DNA of 64,000 nt from Rutstroemia sp. NJR-2017a BVV2 (taxonomy: Eukaryota > Ascomycota > Leotiomycetes > Helotiales > Rutstroemiaceae), in the NCBI GenBank assembly GCA_002946415.1, contig NJPS01000046.1:1054001-1118000 (forward strand), written 5' to 3'. The notes below the pieces were generated by a model, which was not told the DNA's origin, did no database searches, and saw nothing but the letters and a program-made list of their open reading frames with translations. Made by a program: the position numbers and the translations under genes. This document shows, in pieces, positions 14,899 to 32,334 of this stretch (positions are counted from its first letter, which is position 1; each line of letters opens with the position of its first letter).

Positions 14899-15971
14899 TC
14901 ACGGTCGGAAATGACCTTCAGCCCAATCGCGGATACGGTTAAAGTTCCGACAAGTGTGAGGCTCTTTCCAATCGGCCACTACTCTGCCAGCATCATCTGA
15001 CCAACTGAAAACCATGGGGGTGAGGTCCCCATGGCACTGTACAGTCTGCCTGAGATAGTCGATGCAGTGGTCTATAGTTGCAATCAGCGGCGCTGTTCTG
15101 TGCGAGGGATATTGACATATTGCATTACTCACCAACGTGCATCCTGTGGATTCTGTGGCTTTCCTTCTCCTGATAATAATCCGGGTCTAAAGCCTTCCTT
15201 ACTTTATTCTAAACCCGTGTCAGTCGTCCTGCTAGGTACATTCAAGGAATCGCAAGTCCTAGACATTTACTCACCACACAATGAAGGGTATGCATCACAT
15301 CGAGACTTTACTTCGTCAGCCTTCATTAGACAGAATTGGGAAAGGTGCTAAACTTACGCAACTTCGTAGTTGCCATGGTCATCTTTCCAAGTCCGTCCGA
15401 CCATACTTGAGGCTTCGTCTCCAACAAGGTTCATATATTGACCTACAACCAGTTAGTTACATATAGCATTCATGACATCTACTTACTTACCCTTGAGTAG
15501 TCGATTCCATGCTGAATCAATCTCTGGTGAGGGTGGTCCGACATACTGAGGCTGCCCTTCGATGGTTTCTCGGTACAATGTCCCGTTCTTGTGAAAGTGA
15601 AGACCGCCGGTGAAACGAACAGTTTCGCTGGCAAGTACACTTTTTATTGGATCTTTGAAATACCGTATGGTTAGCTGGTGGTCTGAGGTATTACTGGGAT
15701 ACACAGATATACCTAACTCGGTAGTGAAGCCTTTGAGGAAACCACTGTTAATGTAGGCGTGTGCGAGACGACCATGTAGCACAAACAGGGCGATAATCAG
15801 GATTGGAAAGAGAGCAAACGAAAATAATGAAGTGAAGTAGAATGACCTAGAAACCGATACAGTTGAAGAATAGCTGCTTCGCACTGGAGATCGATTACCG
15901 TTGTCGGAGCCGTCTTCAACAGAGACATACTTTGCTGTATTTTCGGGCCATAAGGATTTCATGAACGACAT
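14899..15971 (-). CDS. UstYa-like (DUF3328) oxidase 1
   Basis: Five exons on the minus strand, 15971-15491, 15442-15358, 15305-15275, 15208-15133 and 15071-14899, encode 281 residues. A cytosolic N-terminus is followed by one membrane helix at about 44-65. The lumenal domain has the classic family layout: NLVGDEASSMVGRTWKDD, then HTLHC at 194-198 and HVDHC at 223-227. These are the two HxxHC motifs thought to bind copper in UstYa-type enzymes. The end also fits (IDYLRQTVQCHGDLTP, HTCRNFNRIRDWA). UstYa proteins act in the secretory pathway on ribosomal peptide precursors, forming ether or other oxidative cross-links. The tiny 31-bp third exon carries the first motif. It is divergent from the next cluster gene, sharing a 1.1-kb upstream region. 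All key residues look intact. Confidence 0.9.
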
Positions 15972-16438
15972 CTTCGCAACGGAAAATTTGATGAGAAGTT
16001 CGCTGATGAATAGCTGGTGTATGGGTGGGAGACGTTGATGTTGGGGATAGAAGGTATTTCCTGTATCGAAACCGGAGAATCTTTGCAAAGGAATTCCGTG
16101 GCGGTACAATGATTGAAAGCTCAACTTAGATTAATGACACTTCGAGCGGGGTTTCAGGAGCGTGCCCGCATAATGTCACCGGAGGCACGAGTATCGGATG
16201 GCAACTTATTCCATTGAATCGTTCTGGGCGAAAAGTCAAAATAAGACGCCACATCGGAGACATAAGCAGACGCTGACGATTTTCGAAACTATGGAGTGAC
16301 TCTGGTTTCGGTCGTCGGTGAAGGGAATACAAGATGTGCGAGTCCCACTTGAAACCCTCTTCCGTGCTATCTTTCTACGAATAAAAGTTAAACTTTGGGT
16401 GGTAAGACACGTGAATATATTTACCTTTATTTTTCGGG

Positions 16439-16612
16439 AGGGATAGTACGACCGTAGATCGCTCAGCTATTATGTCCCCTTCTTGAATAAAGGTTAAATT
16501 AACCTTTATTCATGGGTAGGGATAGTATACTGTAGTACACCCAAACCCCTTGTAGAGACCCTAGATGCCCCTGTATAGAACAAGACTAATTACATTCTAG
16601 AATACTATCCCT
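16439..16612. promoter_or_regulatory. Three AGGGATAGTA motifs
   Basis: AGGGATAGTA occurs at 16439-16448 and 16518-16527 on the plus strand and at 16603-16612 on the minus strand. The same motif is found in the P4H/precursor intergenic region. It is a candidate binding site for a regulator of the cluster, though transposon ancestry could also explain it. Confidence 0.4.
16485..16511. repeat. 27-bp perfect palindrome
   Basis: Two 13-bp arms, GAATAAAGGTTAA and TTAACCTTTATTC, flank a single central base. It overlaps the start of a longer imperfect inverted repeat whose other arm lies at about 16600-16640 (ACTATCCCT, then AATAAGGTTAATT). It could be a regulatory site or the end of a small inverted-repeat element. 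Confidence 0.8.
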
Positions 16613-17065
16613 CATCGAGGCCCAATGAAATAAGGTTAATTGTTGGCAAGTTACTTGGCAGCTAGTATAAGTTCTCAGCCAAGAAAGTTCTTAGAATGAA
16701 GATTTTAACCTTTGTTAAGGCCTGATTCTGAGTAATTAGGGGATTGGAAGTTGATAAGGTACGGAATAATCGAGTTCCCCAGCCCCTTCGTGACATGCTT
16801 AGTTCGTCGAGTGAGTTATAATTTCTACGGATTCTTCGGGAAGTGGACACTGGCAAAGAAGTGTCTCGAGTCATAACAGAAGTTACCGTCAGGACTCAGA
16901 AGTGTCCTCATCCACATTCTCTGAGAGCCCGCTTTGCTGTTCTATTGCAGTGGATGATCTCCAATCGCTCCTATTGCATTCTACCTACCGTCCAAAAAAT
17001 CCATCACCTAGAAGAATCAAAAGCTTGCTAAAGCTCCTATCGACCACGCCAAACCCTTCAATAAT

Positions 17066-17767
17066 ATGGCTTTTCAAGATACAGATGAATGCAACGTCCC
17101 CATGCTCAGCGAAGAGGAAGATGAAAAGTCGATTCCTTTTACTACCTCACCGCAACCACAACGTCGGCGTAAGATTTGTTCTATCCTACTCATCGGCCTC
17201 GCTACGAGCGTCCTCTTTGCACTTTCAGTCACTTGGGCTTCGCAGTTCATCGTCCTGCCTACCCATAGCCATACTCAACACATCATCAAAAGCCCCTGCG
17301 GAAACTCGTCCAGCGAAGCGAAAGCCCGTGGATGTCATTTTGACGTGCTTTCATTCTGCTGGGTCCCAGAGCAGTGCTTTGATCGGGAGCTGACAGAAAA
17401 GTTCCGCAAGGCCGGGCCGTGGGTGTTCTACACCGATCAGAACAAGACTGCATCGGTCACTGAAGAGCAATTCGGCTCCGATACGCAGCCCGTTTACCTC
17501 ACCAACAAGTTACACAAGACGCATTGTGCCTACAACATTCTCAGATTTCACAAAGCACTGACGGAAGGTCGAATGGTTCATAAGGAAGATGTCTTGACCC
17601 ACACGGAGCACTGTTCGCATGTCTTGACGAGAGTCAACGATCCGGATGATATTGAGGTTAGGGCAAAGATTCAATACCCGGATTGCGGTCACTTCTCGAA
17701 GGACTTTCCGGGGAAAGCAAAGGACGGTGGACATACCCACCATAATGGACACTCGAACATGAGATAG
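17066..17767 (+). CDS. UstYa-like (DUF3328-related) protein 2
   Basis: One exon encodes 233 residues. The N-terminal 37 residues are acidic then basic (QRRRK), and one membrane helix follows at about 38-61. The lumenal part begins with CGNSSSEAKARGCHFDVLSF and a WVPEQCFD block, a variant seen in a subset of DUF3328-like proteins. It has HKTHC at 150-154 and HTEHC at 179-183, with the usual alpha-helical spacing. The C-terminus is His-rich (HTHHNGH). Unlike the other two copies it lacks introns and the canonical DW-type C-terminus, so it belongs to a divergent branch. Oxidative modification of the neighbouring precursor is inferred from motifs and context. Confidence 0.85.
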   Translation: MAFQDTDECNVPMLSEEEDEKSIPFTTSPQPQRRRKICSILLIGLATSVLFALSVTWASQFIVLPTHSHTQHIIKSPCGNSSSEAKARGCHFDVLSFCWVPEQCFDRELTEKFRKAGPWVFYTDQNKTASVTEEQFGSDTQPVYLTNKLHKTHCAYNILRFHKALTEGRMVHKEDVLTHTEHCSHVLTRVNDPDDIEVRAKIQYPDCGHFSKDFPGKAKDGGHTHHNGHSNMR

Positions 17768-18202
17768 TGCTCTTTAATATCTTAGATAGCTCCATAGAAT
17801 ACCTGTAGATACAGCTGCTAAAATGAAACCATACTGTTAGTATGCTGTAACTCATGTTTATGGCTGCTTTTGCCTACCGATTTGGATGTTTGTTGTGCTG
17901 TCTTTTCTAGGCGAGGAAAGAAAGATTATGTAAATATTGGCGCATGAATAATGGCAAAGAGCTATTCTTTCCGAAAAATTGCTCAAATTCTTGTCCGCTG
18001 GTTTGCCATGAAGGTGTTCTTTTCTTTCGGCCGTGCGTCGTAGTTTTGTACTTAGTGATATTTCATTTTCTAGAGTAAAACTTAAAAGGAGTATGCCATA
18101 GGACGTGTTTCAAATTGCGCCAAGAACTTGCAGATGGAGTACTCGATTCAGAATTCTAGCTACTCTTTCGTCAATCGAAAAAACTACAAGCAATTCTTCT
18201 TC
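17768..18202. other. Convergent 3' flanks
   Basis: This stretch lies between the ends of UstYa-like 2 (plus) and UstYa-like 3 (minus). Nothing coding is seen. Confidence 0.5.
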
Positions 18203-19166
18203 TCAATCGGTCACCTTCCAACTTTTGGGTAGGGCTCTCTCTGGCTGCTTTGACCATGCTAGCAAGGCATCAAAATCGTTACAAACATGCATGACCCCAT
18301 GATCAGCCACACGGTGGGGATCTCCTTCAATATGTCCTTCAGCTGTAGAATCAGCAAAACACATCAAAGCCTGCCTGACGTAGTTGAAACAATGCGCCTT
18401 GTGCTCTTCCCATGTCAACGTTACCCCGCTGTGGTAGCCTGGCAATTCTTCTTTGGGAACTCCGGCAGCGAGAAGAACAAAGTCCTCGAGTATAGATGTC
18501 TGTCAAGAGAGGTTAGAAGTCTGAAGTGAAGTCTCGGGAACGGGAAAATGGCTTACTAGACAATGAATTTGATGGAAAGCGGAAATTTCAAACAGATCTC
18601 CTGCAAAGAGCTTTTGAGGTCCGCTGCCATCATACGGCGTGGCTCGCACGAACGCTAAGGGTTTCCGAATTAGACATGTGCATCACGTTGGATAGTTGTC
18701 ATGGAAGTTTTACCATGAGAGAGACTCTGCCAAGAGCTAAGAGTTTGATTGAATAGACCCCGATCATTGAATGCATCAGCAGTTATCTGGTACTGATCTG
18801 GGCCAGAGGGTTTGGGAACCCCCCTTGAGCTAACATCTGTTTTTGAGGTCAGTAACATTCGAGAGATCAGGATAATTCACACGGCAATGAAGACTTACCA
18901 TGGGGTACGAAATGATTGTAATCACTTCCTGCCGGCCAAACCTGCCAACTACCGGCGCCGGCTTTGCTGGTGTCATTCCTCAAAATAAGACCAGTCGTCC
19001 CAAGTAGGCAGACAATGAGAATAACCTCAAGACAACAACGAAGAATCTGAATGCGGGAAAAGGAATTTTCACGATCAGACTTCCGGTCTAGCCTGCCAGT
19101 GAATATTCCATTTTCTGTATCGTCGTCTGACGACGAATTGCGTCCAAGTAGCTTGTTGCCTTCCAT
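18203..19166 (-). CDS. UstYa-like (DUF3328) oxidase 3
   Basis: Four exons on the minus strand, 19166-18899, 18836-18714, 18654-18557 and 18499-18203, encode 261 residues. One membrane helix lies at about 44-62 after an acidic/basic cytosolic tail. The lumenal domain carries FHQIHCL (HQIHC at 158-162, right at the end of exon 3) and HKAHC at 196-200. The terminal block is DHGVMHVCNDFDALLAW, which aligns with the D-H-C-hx-W end of the family. Both HxxHC motifs are intact, so an active enzyme is likely. Its gene lies tail-to-tail with UstYa-like 2 and is followed upstream by the P4H-like gene on the same strand. Confidence 0.88.
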
Positions 19167-19606
19167 GTAGAGTAAATAAAGGAGTACTGCCGTATTAGGG
19201 GTGATTTTGACAAATATGAGAAGGAGCAGAGAAGAGAAGTGAATCGGGATAGCTTACGATTCGAGAGAAATGCATAGTGTGGAGTGCTCTTGAGAGCGTT
19301 AATGTTAGTAGGTAGTACGGAACACTTACATTACTCGGGGGAAAGTAGCAGCGAGGTTCACTTGAACCCTTGCGAGTCGATTAAAGTTTGGCATCCGGAT
19401 TTCGGGAATCCTGGGATTACCCGTACTTCAAGATAATTTAATAAGCTTTAATTGATCATGTAAGCATACAAAAGTACGTTGATTTAAGTTTCTGTTAACT
19501 CTTTCACGTAAAGCACCGAAAAGTGCGAAAATGCGGAATGTAAACCTTAAATCAGGAATGAGACAACGGCCATCTCCCTCCGTGGATGTCAGTGGCAGGA
19601 CTAAAC
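19167..19606. other. Upstream region of UstYa-like 3
   Basis: A 440-bp stretch between the UstYa-like 3 start and the P4H-like stop. It contains one partial copy of the cluster motif (GGGATAG near 19240). No coding sequence. Confidence 0.45.
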
Positions 19607-20426
19607 CTAAACCTCTCGACGTGTCCAGATATTCAGCCCCACCTTTTTCCCGCCGACAGCGGGGAGCCCCGCATGTAGCGTACGCATATCCCCAGTCCCA
19701 TTAGAATGGAGATTCCGCCAGAAAACGGCACTTCCGGCAACCGCCCGAACTGTTAACTCGTCGACGGCCTTGCAATCAACAAACTTGCACCATCTTTTAT
19801 CCTCGACGTCCCAGTCTATTGAGATCTTAGGAAAACGGGTCCCGCAATTGGAGCACTCTACATCGAGGACGGCGAAAAAAGTGGTCTCCCTGTTCGTTGT
19901 CTGATTTCTTGCGGCAGGGTTGGTGGCCCAATCGTAGTGGTTCGTGTATTGCTGTCCTTCTAGATACCGTGTAGCTTGCAGGCTCTCCATCATCTCAAGG
20001 TCGACGTAACCCTGATACTCTGAAGCCCTGGACCTAACGCATTGGACGACAGGATCGTCCGAAGGCAGATATGCAGTGGAACTGGTTCGCTCCTGTCTAG
20101 CTACAGACCGCCCATCAGTTCCGATGGCACGAGAGGGTCGGAAATTAGACTGTCTGCACGACTCATTAACACTATCCACCTGGATTTGCTATCGAAACCA
20201 TGACTTACGCCACTTGGAGCAGGTGATTAGCCTCTCGAGGAGTGATAAAGTTCTCGATGTGTTGGATGAGTGGATCATACGACAAGGTGCGGACAATATA
20301 GCGTGGTTGCGGGCAAGAGTTACCGCCAAAGAAGCTGGGCATCGTTATGGATCGTGAAACAGCGGAGAATACTGCAGCAAGGAGAGCCACAATAAAAGAT
20401 ATGTAAAAGATTTGCCTAAAAGCCAT
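19607..20426 (-). CDS. Prolyl-4-hydroxylase-like 2OG-Fe(II) oxygenase
   Basis: Two exons on the minus strand, 20426-20209 and 20153-19607, encode 254 residues. The N-terminus has a signal anchor (FYISFIVALLAAVF). The P4H alpha-subunit catalytic fold follows: YDPLIQHIENFITPREANHL, then FRPSRAIG and RTSSTAYLP. The iron triad is intact: His145 and Asp147 in GQQYTNHYDWA and His233 in TLHAGLP. Lys243 in GGKKVGLNIW is placed to bind 2-oxoglutarate. Such enzymes hydroxylate Pro, or sometimes other residues, in the ER lumen. It faces the repeat precursor across a 1.1-kb divergent region, and each precursor repeat has two prolines. Substrate assignment is inference. Confidence 0.88.
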
Positions 20427-21511
20427 TTTGTGTAGAGAAGGGTGTGCTAATATTAAGAAGGCCTCGACAAAATCCCGAATTCCGAATGTGAATCACAAAG
20501 AATTGATACACTTTTGCTACATGATGATACCGACAGATATCTGATTCGCTTTATATGCTCGATGGTAATACAATGTCATAAGACAAGGGATGCCAAGTTC
20601 CAACATTGAGATACGCAAAGGACTAAAAAATTGTGAAACAATTTCTGAGATTTCAAGTTTGCCAAGCTCCAAGACTCTCGAACTCCTTCAAGGAGACGTA
20701 CTATCCCTTCCCATTAATATATTTAAACTTTTTATGCGAGGCCCCACCTAAAAATAAACATTTATTCATGGAGAGGGATAGTCATATTGACTTTTCCTCT
20801 GTAGCTGGAGGAATAATACTCCGTAGGCCGACTCTCCGAGTCATGTTTCCCTGCAGCTGATACTATTATGGGGACATCACTTCATAGTACGAAGAGGTGG
20901 TCGATATGCTCTGAAACTTTGTCTATCAGAGGGGGTTGTACGGCTTTCGTCTTGAGGTAATATCGCCAGAACGCCTTGATATGCTCTACAGTGGTACACC
21001 GGTGATATACTTTGCATTACAAGTAGACTAGCACTAGCAACGGATGTACCTGACACTGTCGAATCAACTAACTCAAGTAGTGATACGGTGATATAGTCTT
21101 TATGATAGCTCTGAACTCAGCTAGATTAGGCTAGCAGCTCTAGCGGTGGTCCCTTTACAGGGCTAGTTGAGTATTGAACTGCTGTATCCTAATAGACCTA
21201 TTCGTATACCATTATCGCCTTGATGAGTAAAGCATCTGGAGGCCTTAGCTAGCATAGTTGGTATGGATCATACAGTGATCGCTGAAACTTTGCAGCCGGT
21301 CAAGAAAAGCATCACTCTTCGGCCGAGCGATGTAGTTAACAAAGCAGGCTCAACACGATGCGGTCGCTCCGTGGAAAAGTCTAATAGACAACAATACTTA
21401 AACCTGCTTCTGCCCGCCATTCCACCAGTCTCAGACAACTCACAAGTCACATATTATCAAACGCCTTGCATTTTCATCTTTCAACTCAACATAAATTTCA
21501 CTCAAGCCATC
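20427..21511. other. Divergent intergenic region of the P4H-like gene and the precursor
   Basis: It contains two copies of the cluster motif (minus at 20699-20708, plus at 20774-20782) arranged as an inverted pair about 75 bp apart. The plus copy shares the longer context TTTATTCATGG..AGGGATAGT with the UstYa region. No coding sequence is supported. Confidence 0.55.
20699..20782. promoter_or_regulatory. Inverted pair of AGGGATAGT motifs
   Basis: TACTATCCCT at 20699-20708 and AGGGATAGT at 20774-20782 form an outward-facing pair. They lie 273-356 bp upstream of the P4H-like ATG and about 730-810 bp upstream of the precursor ATG. Confidence 0.4.
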
Positions 21512-21985
21512 ATGCAGATCCTCAAAATCACCGCCATTCTTGCCTTTGCGGCCACCTTTTCTGCCGCCGCCCCTGGTGCAAAGCTCAACGCTGTTACGAA
21601 GCGTCAAACCACTGAGTTTGGCCCATACCCCGAGGATGACTATGCCAACAGCAAGCGCCAGACCACCGAGTTTGGCCCATACCCTGAGGACGACTATGCA
21701 AACAAAAAGCGTCAAACTACCGAATTCGGTCCATACCCCGAGGACGACTATTCAAACAAAAAGCGTCAGACTACCGAATTCGGCCCTTACCCAGAGGACG
21801 ACTATGCCAACAGCAAGCGCCAGACCACCGAGTTTGGCCCATACCCTGAGGACGACTATTCAAACAAAAAGCGTCAGACTACCGAATTCGGCCCTTACCC
21901 AGAGGACGACTATGCCAACAGCAAGCGCCAAACCACCGAATTCGGTCCATACCCTGAGGATGACTATGCAAACAAAAAGGAGTAA
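21512..21985 (+). CDS. Repeat peptide precursor (candidate RiPP, Kex2-processed)
   Basis: One exon encodes 157 residues. A signal peptide (MQILKITAILAFAATFSAAA) and a short leader to TKR at residue 31 are followed by seven tandem 18-residue units. The unit is QTTEFGPYPEDDY(A/S)N(S/K)KR, and the last ends in KE instead of KR. Lys-Arg at every junction is a Kex2 site, so processing would free peptides of up to 16 residues that start with Gln. This is the architecture of ustiloxin, phomopsin and asperipin precursors, whose cores are modified by UstYa-family enzymes encoded next door, as here. Tyr, Pro and Asp in the unit are candidate targets. The ATG at 21512 is chosen because it starts the signal peptide, although the frame stays open upstream to 21263. 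The product is not one I recognise. Confidence 0.9.
   Translation: MQILKITAILAFAATFSAAAPGAKLNAVTKRQTTEFGPYPEDDYANSKRQTTEFGPYPEDDYANKKRQTTEFGPYPEDDYSNKKRQTTEFGPYPEDDYANSKRQTTEFGPYPEDDYSNKKRQTTEFGPYPEDDYANSKRQTTEFGPYPEDDYANKKE
21605..21982 (+). repeat. Seven 54-bp tandem coding repeats
   Basis: The repeats begin at residue 32 and run to the codon before the stop. Units 4 and 6 are identical in DNA, and units 2 and 5 differ by one base. Units 3-4 and 5-6 both follow the order SNK then ANS, which suggests expansion in 108-bp pairs. Confidence 0.95.
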
Positions 21986-25752: not shown

Positions 25753-27258
25753 ATGTCAGACCCAAATAACCCAAATATCAAAAGCAGGAACACTCCACAA
25801 TGGGCTCTGTACCAGAGAGATATGTTTTGGAGAGACAACGAAGGGGAGCTTCCACCATTTAGTACCGAACCGGGAGATCTCGAAGATTTAGCCAAGGAAA
25901 CCTTGTCGAAAGGTGGGTGGTAAGTCTCATTTTGTTTACCAAGACTTCCATTTTCGCTCTGATATTGCGAGAGTCGCACCATGTCAATTGAGTATTGCAT
26001 CTCGAGACCTGGTTCCATAGCAATGATACTGCCATTATATCGCCTAACCATCGCCTGATTAGGTACTATGCATCCTCAAATGCTGGCCAGTCCTACACCC
26101 ATCTCGCGAACCGACAGGCCTTCTACCGACATCGCATTGTTCCTCGAATGCTCGTTGACACAAACAAACGCGATACGAAAACCGAAATATTTGGCCACAA
26201 AGTGAGCGCGCCAATTGGCTTTGCGCCAATCGGTATAAACAAGATCTACAACCCTCAAGGTGAAATTCCGGTCGCCAAGGTTGCCAAAGAGCTCAATCTA
26301 CCATACTGCCTGTCTACTGCAGGCTCGACTTCGATAGAAGAGGTTGGAGAGGCCAATGGTGCAGGACCACGATTCTTCCAGCTATATTCACCCCACGATG
26401 ACGAATTGACCTTGAGCTTGTTGCAGAGAGCGCACGATAGTGGGTTTACGGCATGCATCTGGACATTAGACACATGGCAATTGGCTTGGAGACATTATGA
26501 CACGGCGAACTCAAACTATGCCCCTTACCACGGGCTTCAATACGCAGACCTTGGAGCCTCTGATCCTGTCTTCCAGAAGAGACTGAAGGAAGCCGGCATT
26601 GACCCAAAGAAAGAATCGAACAAAGCTGGTGCTATGTGGATTGATAATGTCTGGCATGGTCGCGCATACTCTTGGGAGAAGCTGCCCTGGATGATGGAGC
26701 AGTGGAAGAGAATCAGTGGCGGTAAACCTTTCTGTCTTAAAGGTATTCAACATGTGGCAGACGCAAAGAAAGCTGTTGAGATGGGTGTTGATGGAATTGT
26801 CGTGAGTAATCACGCCGGCCGCCAAGTCGACGGAGCTTGCGCGAGTTTGGACGCTTTAGAAAAAATCGTTGATGGTAAGCAATAACCTTATTGTCCTTAC
26901 AGCATAGCTCACGGACTCCTTTTCCACCTTTCCACGTTTCAATTAGTGCATCAATTAACTTCTCCTAGCTGTTGGTGACAAAACTTACATCATGTTCGAT
27001 TCCGGTGTCAGAGGAGCATCTGATGTCTTCAAAGCTTTGGCCCTTGGAGCAAAGTTCGTGTTTGTTGGAAGACTCTGGGTTTGGGGACTGAGTATCAAGG
27101 GTGAACTTGGAGTGAGACACGTCATGAAGGCTCTGCTGGCTGAATTCGATATCCTGATGAACGTATCTGGGTATCAGAGCGTGGATCAGATCAACCGGGA
27201 CAGCATTCAGAGCCTTCCCAATTCTGCTAACATGATTTCTGTACGATCTAAACTATGA
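25753..27258 (+). CDS. FMN-dependent alpha-hydroxyacid oxidase/dehydrogenase
   Basis: Three exons, 25753-25919, 26063-26874 and 26969-27258, join in frame to 422 residues. The first exon encodes QWALYQRDMFWRDNEGELPP, and GGWYYASSNAGQ spans the first junction. The fold's landmarks follow: HKVSAPIGFAPIG (FMN and active site entry), LSTAGSTSIEEV, FFQLY, the catalytic VVSNHAGRQVDGACASLDAL, and the phosphate-binding DSGVRGASDVFKALALGAKFVFVGR. The family oxidises L-2-hydroxyacids such as lactate. The form resembles fungal lactate 2-monooxygenase-like proteins and has no cytochrome b5 domain. It is the first of three flavoenzyme genes in a row on this strand. Confidence 0.9.
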
Positions 27259-27493
27259 TGGCCGCTAATAGAATTTTGTCATGTATAATATATAATTTGA
27301 CAATAAACATACAAGAATTAGATTTTACCATTCAATAATTTCTCTTCAGGAGCAAAGTCTTCGCTGCGCTGGTAAAAGTCTGGTGAATTCATTGCTAAGA
27401 ACACTCCTTCATCGAGGGGTAACCCGGTGCCCCGGTGCCCCGCACTCGAGCCTGATCGGTAGGTGAATTTTATATTCACACCACCCATTGATA

Positions 27494-28046
27494 CAACGCT
27501 TTGCATAACTGACTTTAAAAACCTTAAATTTTAAAAACATCGATTTTCCAAAATCGCTATTAATCCCACTCTGTACCCTCAATTAACTCAACAACCACGT
27601 ACTGGATTATAATTATATTTGATCGCAAGATTAATTACTATAGTATCTATCATTTAAAAAAAAGTATAACATCTCTAGGGGCGTAGAAAGTGATCTCAAA
27701 TTTGAAGGGCAAATATTCAACTTTGGGTTCAGTTTTCTGAACCTCGGCTCAACGAAAATCACTTTTTCTCACTTTTTCTCACTTTTTCTCACTTTTTCTC
27801 GCTTTTTCTCGCTTTTTCTCACTTTTTAATAATTATTGAAAAATTTATTTATTTTATAAGATAAATTAAAAAAGAGATAAGATCTGAGTAGACCTCGAAG
27901 AGAGCTTTAAAATCAACTAGCATTTATCATTATAGGCCTAATATTGCAAAAGTAATTAAAGAAACAAGGTTTTTGAAAGAGTGATATTTTTAAAATCGAT
28001 GTTTTTAAAAAATTAAGGTTTTTAAAGCCAGTTATGCAAAGCGTTG
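27494..28046. mobile_element. MITE with 55-bp inverted repeats and TA target site
   Basis: The left end (CAACGCTTTGCATAACTG, then CTTTAAAAACCTTAA and AAAAACATCGATTTT) recurs inverted at the right end with only a few differences over about 55 bp. Both ends abut a TA dinucleotide (27492-27493 and 28047-28048), the target duplication of Tc1/mariner-type elements. The 553-bp AT-rich interior has no coding capacity, so it is non-autonomous. It sits in the intergenic region between two FMN enzyme genes. Confidence 0.85.
27761..27827 (+). repeat. 10-bp minisatellite inside the MITE
   Basis: Six copies of (A/G)CTTTTTCTC and a partial seventh lie head to tail near the centre of the MITE. Confidence 0.95.
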
Positions 28047-28264
28047 TAACGCATCTTGCCGGCAGGCGTGCCGAGCTCGGTGTCAATTGTCACGACCATT
28101 TCAAGCTATAATATCTTAGACGCAGGAGTGGTTGGAGCTGACTCTGCTGGGTAAATATCTCCAATTTCCTATCCACCTCATCTTCAGTGCCGCCGTGTTT
28201 ATCTTTCTTCTGTTCGTTGCCTTTCACATTCAATGAATGCGTTAACCTCATCTTGATTGCCACC

Positions 28265-29860
28265 ATGTCGCGCAGTATATCCGTAGAAGAAGTGTCTCAA
28301 CACAACCAGCTCTCAGACCTATGGATTGTAGTAGAAAACACAGTATATGATTTAACAGATTTTGCACCTGAACATCCGGGTGGCGCAAGCAGTTTGTCTA
28401 TCTCCCATCATCAATTCAATCTGCAATTAACTTGGAAACTAGTAATCCTTAAATATGCCGGTCGAGATGCTACCCAAGCTTACGCCGAAGTTCATGCCTC
28501 CTCTCTTATAGCCTCAACTCTGCCTGCCTCGAAGGTTGTCGGGACTCTCGACCTCTCATCGATTACAGACGAATGGATTAAACCCCCACCCGAAGTCTCC
28601 TCAACGAATGCTCCCGACTCCAAACCCCCTCTTGACACCCTTATAAGTACACATGATTTCGTTGCTGCGGCGGAAATAATACTTACTCCAAAGACATGGG
28701 CTTTCTACTCCTCGGCCGCTACAGATCTAATCACAAAGGGTAGGAATACCTCGGCGTATGCAGAGATTGGTCTCCGACCAAGGATATTGAGGAATGTGAA
28801 GGATGTCAATACGCAAATTACTATGCTGGGCCAGCAATTAGATGTGCCATTCTTTTGCTCGCCAGCAGCGATGGCGAAATTGGTGCATCCGCGAGGAGAA
28901 CAGGAACTGGCGCGGGGATTGAAGTCCGTGGGCTCGGCAATGTGCGTGAGTACAAATGCCAGTTTCCCAATTGCCGAAATATTCGAGAGCATTTCCCAAG
29001 GGCCTTCACATGCGTCGACTGGAAGGGACCTTCCAATCTTTTTCCAACTCTATGTTGACAAGGAGAGAGAGAAATCCGCGAGGCTCCTCAAACATATGGA
29101 AACTCTGGGAGTCAAAGCAATTTTTGTTACTGTCGATGCGCCCGTGCCAGGAAAGCGGGAAGCTGATGAAAGAGTAAAAGCCGACGAGACAATGTCTACT
29201 CCTATGAGTGGCGCAAAGGCTAAGAATGATAAAAAGGGTGGCGCGCTAGGGAGAATTATGGGGGGCTACATTGATGCTACTCTTTCCTGGTCTGATATCG
29301 CCTGGTTGCGACGATGTACCAAGCTGCCTATCTTACTCAAGGGGGTACAGACTTCTTTAGATGCAAAGATAGCAATGGAGCACGGTATAGATGGGATCTT
29401 GGTGAGCAACCATGGTGGTAGAAGTCTAGATACTAGCCCGCCTTCCATACTGGTACTCCTCGAGTTGCAGAAGAACGCGCCAGAGGTATTTGACAAAATG
29501 GAAGTTCTGATCGATGGTGGAATTATGAGGGGCACTGATATATTCAAAGCATTATGCTTGGGAGCTAAAGCAGTAGGCATTGGAAGAGGGTTTCTTTTTG
29601 CCCTAGGCTGGGGTCATGAAGGGGTGGAGAAATATGCCGAGAGTAAGTTTTGTCTAGGGCAGGCGCTTCATTTTGGGATTTTTTGCTGACAATTCATAGT
29701 TCTAAAGGATGAGCTGGAGACGACGATGAGGATGATGGGAGTAACTGATCTCTCACAAGTTCATCCTGGGATGTTGAATACAAGAGCGGTGGATCACTTA
29801 ATTCCAGATGCTGGGGAGGACCATCCGTATGCGAAATGGAGGCCGAAAGCAAGAATATAA
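28265..29860 (+). CDS. Flavocytochrome b2-like FMN dehydrogenase
   Basis: Three exons, 28265-28391, 28443-29642 and 29700-29860, encode 495 residues. The ATG at 28265 sits in GCCACCATG, a good fungal start context. The N-terminal cytochrome b5 domain has DLTDFAPEHPGG and, across intron 1, SIILKYAGRDAT then EVHAS, which supply the two heme His ligands. The FMN domain follows, with PFFCSPAAMAKLVHP, STNASFPI, FFQLYVDK, VSNHGGRSLDTSPPSI and the phosphate-binding IDGGIMRGTDIFKALCLGAKAVGIGRG. The usual GRQLD is GRSLD here. I see no clear mitochondrial presequence. The family oxidises L-lactate and passes electrons to cytochrome c. Confidence 0.9.
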
Positions 29861-30159
29861 CATTTAGCCATTGGAGGCATAACTTGCCGTACTTGCCACG
29901 CCTACTTGATCTCTGACCTACCTTCGCCAGTACAATTCGCAGTTTCCTGATCCGGAAACTCGCCCCAATTACCGGGGATTGCACTGATTGCTGGCAATTT
30001 TTATTCCCGGGCCCGTTCCTACTGGCACTCCTCTGTGGACTTATCTCAGTCACTTATCGCGGGGACCCCGCACCTTACCTAGGTAGAACATTCTCAACCC
30101 GGAAATTCTGTTTTCTAAAATGCGTCGTTTTGTTCAGTATTCTGTGTGATTGTAGTTGT

Positions 30160-32334
<2,175 letters not shown>

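Follow-up and report, generated by a model that had tools for sequence, protein, structure and literature searches.

A candidate dikaritin-type peptide cluster with a prolyl 4-hydroxylase-fold oxygenase in Rutstroemia sp. NJR-2017a BVV2

Dikaritins are ribosomally synthesized and post-translationally modified peptides (RiPPs), five of which had been reported as of 2022 in the part of PMC10512285 consulted; one survey, as excerpted, counts 1758 genes for repeat precursors that have DUF3328 next to them. UstY enzymes are described as dicopper oxidases that form ethers between a tyrosine oxygen and a β-carbon (PMC12186524), and DUF3328 proteins have also been implicated in desaturation, hydroxylation and chlorination (PMC10880069). 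We analyzed a stretch of 64,000 nucleotides (hereafter the window) of Rutstroemia sp. NJR-2017a BVV2, contig NJPS01000046.1, from an assembly of 43.4 Mb in 79 contigs. Open reading frame (ORF) reading and splice modelling gave five intact neighbouring gene models at positions 14899-21985, the number described in an initial annotation of this DNA: two UstYa membrane oxidases (A and C), a membrane protein with paired HxxHC motifs (B), a 2-oxoglutarate (2OG)-Fe(II) oxygenase with a prolyl 4-hydroxylase (P4H) fold (D) and a repeat precursor (E). Judged from these sequences, A to E probably constitute a RiPP pathway of the dikaritin type that has its own peptidyl prolyl hydroxylase. The earlier assignment to a RiPP cluster is well supported by the repeat precursor with Kex2 sites, the adjoining UstYa and P4H-fold genes and the recurrence of orthologues; the set may also be complete and its product cyclic, as that annotation proposed.

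Asperipin-2a of Aspergillus flavus likewise depends on a Kex2-type repeat precursor and a UstYa oxidase, and its product contains a Tyr-O to Phe Cβ ether; it is described with one UstYa protein, whereas the Rutstroemia locus has two, besides the further HxxHC protein and the P4H, and its repeat is longer, acidic and proline-containing. We know of no P4H in the asperipin-2a pathway. Ustiloxins and phomopsins share with A–E a Kex2-processed repeat protein (KEP) precursor and several DUF3328/UstYa proteins, but their cores are unrelated, and their clusters, in the account consulted, add tyrosinase, S41 peptidase, methyltransferase and regulator genes (PMC6941272). Phomopsin UstYa proteins are also reported to desaturate residues, including proline (PMC10880069). 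Epichloecyclins and victorin arise from repeat precursors, likely Kex2-processed, and are classed among the UstYa-cyclised RiPPs; the account consulted mentions no P4H for them, and their cores differ from that of E. A repeat precursor with UstYa proteins is the known dikaritin plan; as far as this literature shows, the novel elements are the dedicated P4H and B, with its conserved family. Among the matches listed, none of the papers joined UstYa with prolyl 4-hydroxylase, and the initial annotation knew of no P4H partner; none joined DUF3328 with 2OG-Fe, and UstY with 2-oxoglutarate gave one paper, PMC12299000, with one mention of each. The matches listed for dikaritins, Botrytis and Colletotrichum dikaritins, UstYa copper and Botrytis RiPPs, in the portions consulted, held no account of the A–E cluster, and neither the core letters of E nor the Botrytis locus tags occurred in the literature searched.

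Gene E (21512..21985, plus strand) encodes 157 aa and contains seven 54-nt units, with the tandem repeat at 21599-21979. A signal-peptide-like start, judged by hydropathy alone, is followed by a short leader ending in KR and then by seven QTTEFGPYPEDDY(A/S)N(S/K) units. Every one of the seven is preceded by KR; units 1-6 end in KR and the last in KKE. E therefore has the make-up of a secreted multi-repeat dikaritin precursor with Kex2 (KR) separators, as first proposed. All nine variable nucleotide columns among the seven 39-nt (13-residue) cores are third codon positions, so the core peptide is conserved despite drift of the DNA, a purifying pattern; the bias has p = 3.4e-6 if columns are assumed independent, an assumption that does not hold for repeats undergoing gene conversion. 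A search with E within its own genome gave one match only. At an E-value of 10 or below it had three relatives elsewhere: P0001 from Colletotrichum higginsianum, P0002 from C. sidae and P0003 from a metagenome, the last being weak (E-value 10) and carrying a single core. The unit, of which the initial annotation knew no other UstYa example, thus does have relatives, and a catalogued type discussed below may match it as well. Comparison of five core variants, omitting one degenerate P0001 unit, revealed the common pattern QxTEFGPYPxDxY, in which one Phe, two Tyr and two Pro are all invariant. The calculated [M+H]+ of linear QTTEFGPYPEDDYAN is 1746.713; each crosslink or desaturation would shift it by -2.016, each hydroxylation by +15.995 and pyroglutamate by -17.027.

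Splice models were built by hand from the DNA letters alone. Gene A (15971..14899, minus strand; five exons, 15971-15491, 15442-15358, 15305-15275, 15208-15133 and 15071-14899) encodes 281 aa and matches PF11807 with an E-value of 1.4e-40 and 140 bits (cut-off 25). It carries HTLHC at 194 and HVDHC at 223, the latter emerging only in the spliced model, and a membrane segment at about residues 47-65 by hydropathy; comparison with solved structures gave nothing relevant (best E-value 0.39). Gene C (19166..18203, minus strand; four exons, 19166-18899, 18836-18714, 18654-18557 and 18499-18203) encodes 261 aa, matches the same family with an E-value of 1.2e-20 and 74.8 bits (cut-off 25), and carries HQIHC at 158 and HKAHC at 196; its exons 2-4 are consistent with the C. 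chlorophyti protein P0027. Both proteins combine a PF11807 score above the cut-off with intact paired HxxHC motifs, the mark of UstYa proteins, and both lie within 7 kb of E, which gives the precursor the UstYa/DUF3328 neighbourhood of a dikaritin. Each of the four enzymes A to D has a single N-terminal hydrophobic segment by hydropathy.

Gene D (20426..19607, minus strand; two exons, 20426-20209 and 20153-19607; 254 aa) scores 30.8 bits against PF13640, above the cut-off of 27. Behind an N-terminal hydrophobic anchor, also found in plant type 1 P4Hs (PMC11275109, in part), it carries HYD (HxD) at 145-147, His233 and Lys243. Type I P4Hs (Chlamydomonas P4H, 3gze, 2jig) share with D the fold, the HxD...H iron ligands and the 2OG lysine, and 3gze contains a proline-peptide substrate; the iron ligands of D align with those of the Chlamydomonas enzyme, from which D differs in its identity of 28% and in being encoded beside a RiPP precursor, its putative substrate. 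A search gave 120 homologues, 13 at 71-89% identity and the rest at 57% or less. HxD and His are invariant in all 38 of these 120 that were aligned, and Lys is nearly invariant (at least 90%). The B. cinerea orthologue, 85% identical to D, has a modelled structure with a P4H fold, closest to 3gze. With ligands and 2OG lysine placed in a P4H fold, D is the P4H-like enzyme that had been claimed, and the catalytic motifs (paired HxxHC in A, B and C, and HxD, His and Lys in D) are intact as stated then. The 41 rows of the D tree comprise the 38 aligned relatives, the window protein and two paralogue pieces; a cluster-type group of 12 with short branches has support of 93/99, just below the starred threshold, and D groups with Rutstroemia at 98/92. 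By analogy with these enzymes, D probably hydroxylates peptidyl proline.

Gene B (17066..17767, plus strand, one exon) encodes 233 aa with HKTHC at 150, HTEHC at 179 and one membrane segment by hydropathy. The initial annotation had counted A, B and C as UstYa-type; the paired HxxHC motifs occur in all three, and PF11807 secures membership for A and C, but B matches no Pfam family at an E-value of 10 or below and thus falls outside PF11807. Aligned to a profile of ten UstYa sequences (hhalign), B had a probability of 0.3%, yet both HxxHC motifs were aligned. Its predicted structure is weak (pLDDT 63.1) and had no PDB match at an E-value of 0.001 or below. Homologues of B number 13, nine of them named and from Botrytis/Botryotinia, Rutstroemia, Colletotrichum and Diaporthe, and the six HxxHC residues are invariant in all 14 aligned sequences. 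The Rutstroemia orthologue, P0004, is named a major facilitator superfamily (MFS) transporter, likely a public annotation error; the single membrane segment and paired HxxHC motifs led us to reject this function for B.

Of the 13 close homologues of D, 11 are named and come from the same groups as the B orthologues; the D gene of B. cinerea is BCIN_02g07480. Six species are common to the B and D lists, and the same contig is indicated in four of them, contigs of equal size being taken as the same and none having been read. In B. globosa, the tags EAF00_011371 and EAF00_011373 leave space for one gene between them, matching the position of C in the window. P0027 of C. chlorophyti fuses D and C sequences in window order; from its sequence it looks like a merged D-C gene model, likely an annotation error in which the distal oxygenase His is lost. 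B and D recur together in several genera and C with D in one genome (C. chlorophyti), and parts of the gene set, as read from these proteins, recur in grey-mould and anthracnose fungi.

Across the same genome, UstYa was matched 79 times at exon level, duplicated contigs accounting for some of these matches. The assembly contains redundant or alternative contigs (C2 and C71; C25, C50 and C74), the stretches L037 and L038 are identical, and several UstYa matches come back with the same score. Twenty stretches were examined, 19 around UstYa matches and one around a P4H relative, and six carry a further dibasic-separated repeat ORF. Contig C59 (L021 7218-9530, L022 426-9500) holds a GTDADAANKVY repeat precursor, UstYa matches, B-like HxxHC proteins (two clear, with E-values of 7.7e-23 and 2.8e-18, and one weak, 0.0014), a cytochrome P450 and a 2OG oxygenase that differs from D and weakly matches the WelO5 halogenase; the two B-like proteins tested fall in no Pfam family. 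C59 is thus a second case of a repeat precursor linked to the B family. Five more repeat ORFs lie near UstYa matches (L017 7498-7875, L027 8073-9068, L030 6613-6963, L032 1457-1720 and L033 7734-8894), with KR separators in four and KK in L027. Contig C46 (L014 5694-8993, L015 977-4029) has four UstYa places, a distant P4H (32% identity) and an aspartyl protease ORF; it was considered as a twin of the A–E cluster, rejected for its very long P4H branch in the tree and for want of a precursor-like tandem repeat, and retained as a lead. A possible one-core precursor on the same contig is a 47-residue ORF (L015 5916-6059) that has a signal-like start and a Pro lying between two Tyr. On C24, which carries the third P4H relative, there is no match to UstYa.

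In the pathway that we propose, precursor E would enter the secretory pathway via its signal peptide, and D, anchored in the same membrane system, would hydroxylate Pro7 and/or Pro9 of GPYP using Fe(II), 2-oxoglutarate and oxygen. Kex2 would cleave after each KR and a carboxypeptidase would remove the basic residues. The membrane-anchored A and C, probably with B (perhaps as a partner), would oxidise the core, whether already released or still tethered; the likeliest outcome is Tyr-O to Cβ ethers or dehydro residues that involve the conserved Phe and the two Tyr. The small acidic peptide would finally be secreted. The signal-like start of E, the single N-terminal hydrophobic segments on A to D and the Kex2-type sites suggest this placement; the compartment, Kex2 cutting and UstYa oxidation are proposed by analogy with described systems, and the linked or hydroxylated residues, the order of steps and the biological role are guesses. 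A broader and more tentative proposal is a hydroxyproline-defined dikaritin subclass spanning Botrytis, Rutstroemia, Colletotrichum and Diaporthe. A P4H of secretory-pathway origin would hydroxylate the prolines of GPYP either ahead of copper-oxidase crosslinking or while it proceeds, and B would represent a second family of HxxHC oxidases or partner subunits, distinct from PF11807 and also at work in the C59 cluster.

It is in our view unlikely that this is an ordinary dikaritin cluster whose core chemistry falls wholly to A and C, with D oxidising another residue (e.g. Asp, Tyr or Phe Cβ) or working on an unrelated secreted protein. P4H-fold enzymes are able to act on non-proline residues, 2OG-Fe(II) enzymes in general switch substrate readily, and the different 2OG oxygenase of the C59 repeat-plus-UstYa cluster means that such partners are not always P4Hs; however, the modelled D orthologue most resembles an enzyme whose solved structure includes a proline peptide, neither core proline varies among the five variants compared, and D recurs with B across several genera. 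It is very improbable that the repeats yield pheromone-like or KEP-like linear peptides for signalling, with the adjoining oxidases acting on something else: two PF11807 genes lie less than 7 kb from the precursor, and the core keeps two Tyr and a Phe, the residue types of known crosslinks. The yeast alpha factor is one example of a linear KEP peptide. About 78% of 7878 KEPs had no DUF3328 neighbour in the 2020 survey, but pheromone precursors were almost never beside DUF3328 genes there (PMC7329392, in the part consulted).

Several further results weigh against a dikaritin pathway with prolyl hydroxylation. No tyrosinase, peptidase, methyltransferase, transporter or regulator was recognised among genes A–E, unlike in the ustiloxin and phomopsin clusters; the conserved B family may or may not be related to UstYa. 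P0001 also carries a degenerate unit without FGPYP, and the search with E (E-value of 10 or below) gave no Botrytis or Rutstroemia relative. The contigs of the three E relatives coincide with none that bear B or D, and linkage of E was not seen outside the window; the co-occurrence suggested at the outset as a check thus holds for B and D, in one case for C, and was not seen for E. In B. cinerea and D. helianthi, two of the six shared species, the B and D contigs differ in size, which may reflect other strains or fragmentation. Within the genome, a further B-like place on C2 (copied on C71) has no repeat ORF within 3.3 kb loci, and neither L014 nor L015 of C46 has a precursor-like tandem repeat, leaving that P4H paralogue unlinked to a repeat precursor. 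On novelty alone, and compatibly with the proposed pathway, E may already be catalogued as Umemura KEP type #24 (G-5/P-1), which would leave the P4H link and the B family as the sole novelties; we rate this only a little short of even. That type comprises 19 genera, including Botryotinia, Botrytis, Coleophoma, Rutstroemia, Sclerotinia and Colletotrichum, a list that fits, and is Y-rich with several D, with a DUF3328 gene near 16 of its 35 members; it also covers basidiomycetes and a chytrid, and the other 19 members have no DUF3328 gene nearby (PMC7329392, as excerpted), so type #24 may be a mixed group.

Other features of the window include a short element resembling a miniature inverted-repeat transposable element (MITE) at 20700-20782, with 33-nt imperfect inverted ends ACTATCCCT...AGGGATAGT, and related MITE-like arms between genes A and B (16416-16531 and 16599-16641); a 76% copy occurs on contig C53. 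Three consecutive flavoenzyme genes at 25992-32334 encode two flavin mononucleotide (FMN)-dependent dehydrogenases, cytochrome b5 being part of the second, and a flavoprotein resembling fumarate reductase; they are probably outside the RiPP block.

The compact gene set, the clear core and the presence of B and D orthologues in Botrytis cinerea would make the presence of hydroxyproline in crosslinked fungal ribosomal peptides directly testable. The proposed pathway would also give a function to the conserved B family, whose Rutstroemia orthologue bears the name of an MFS transporter.

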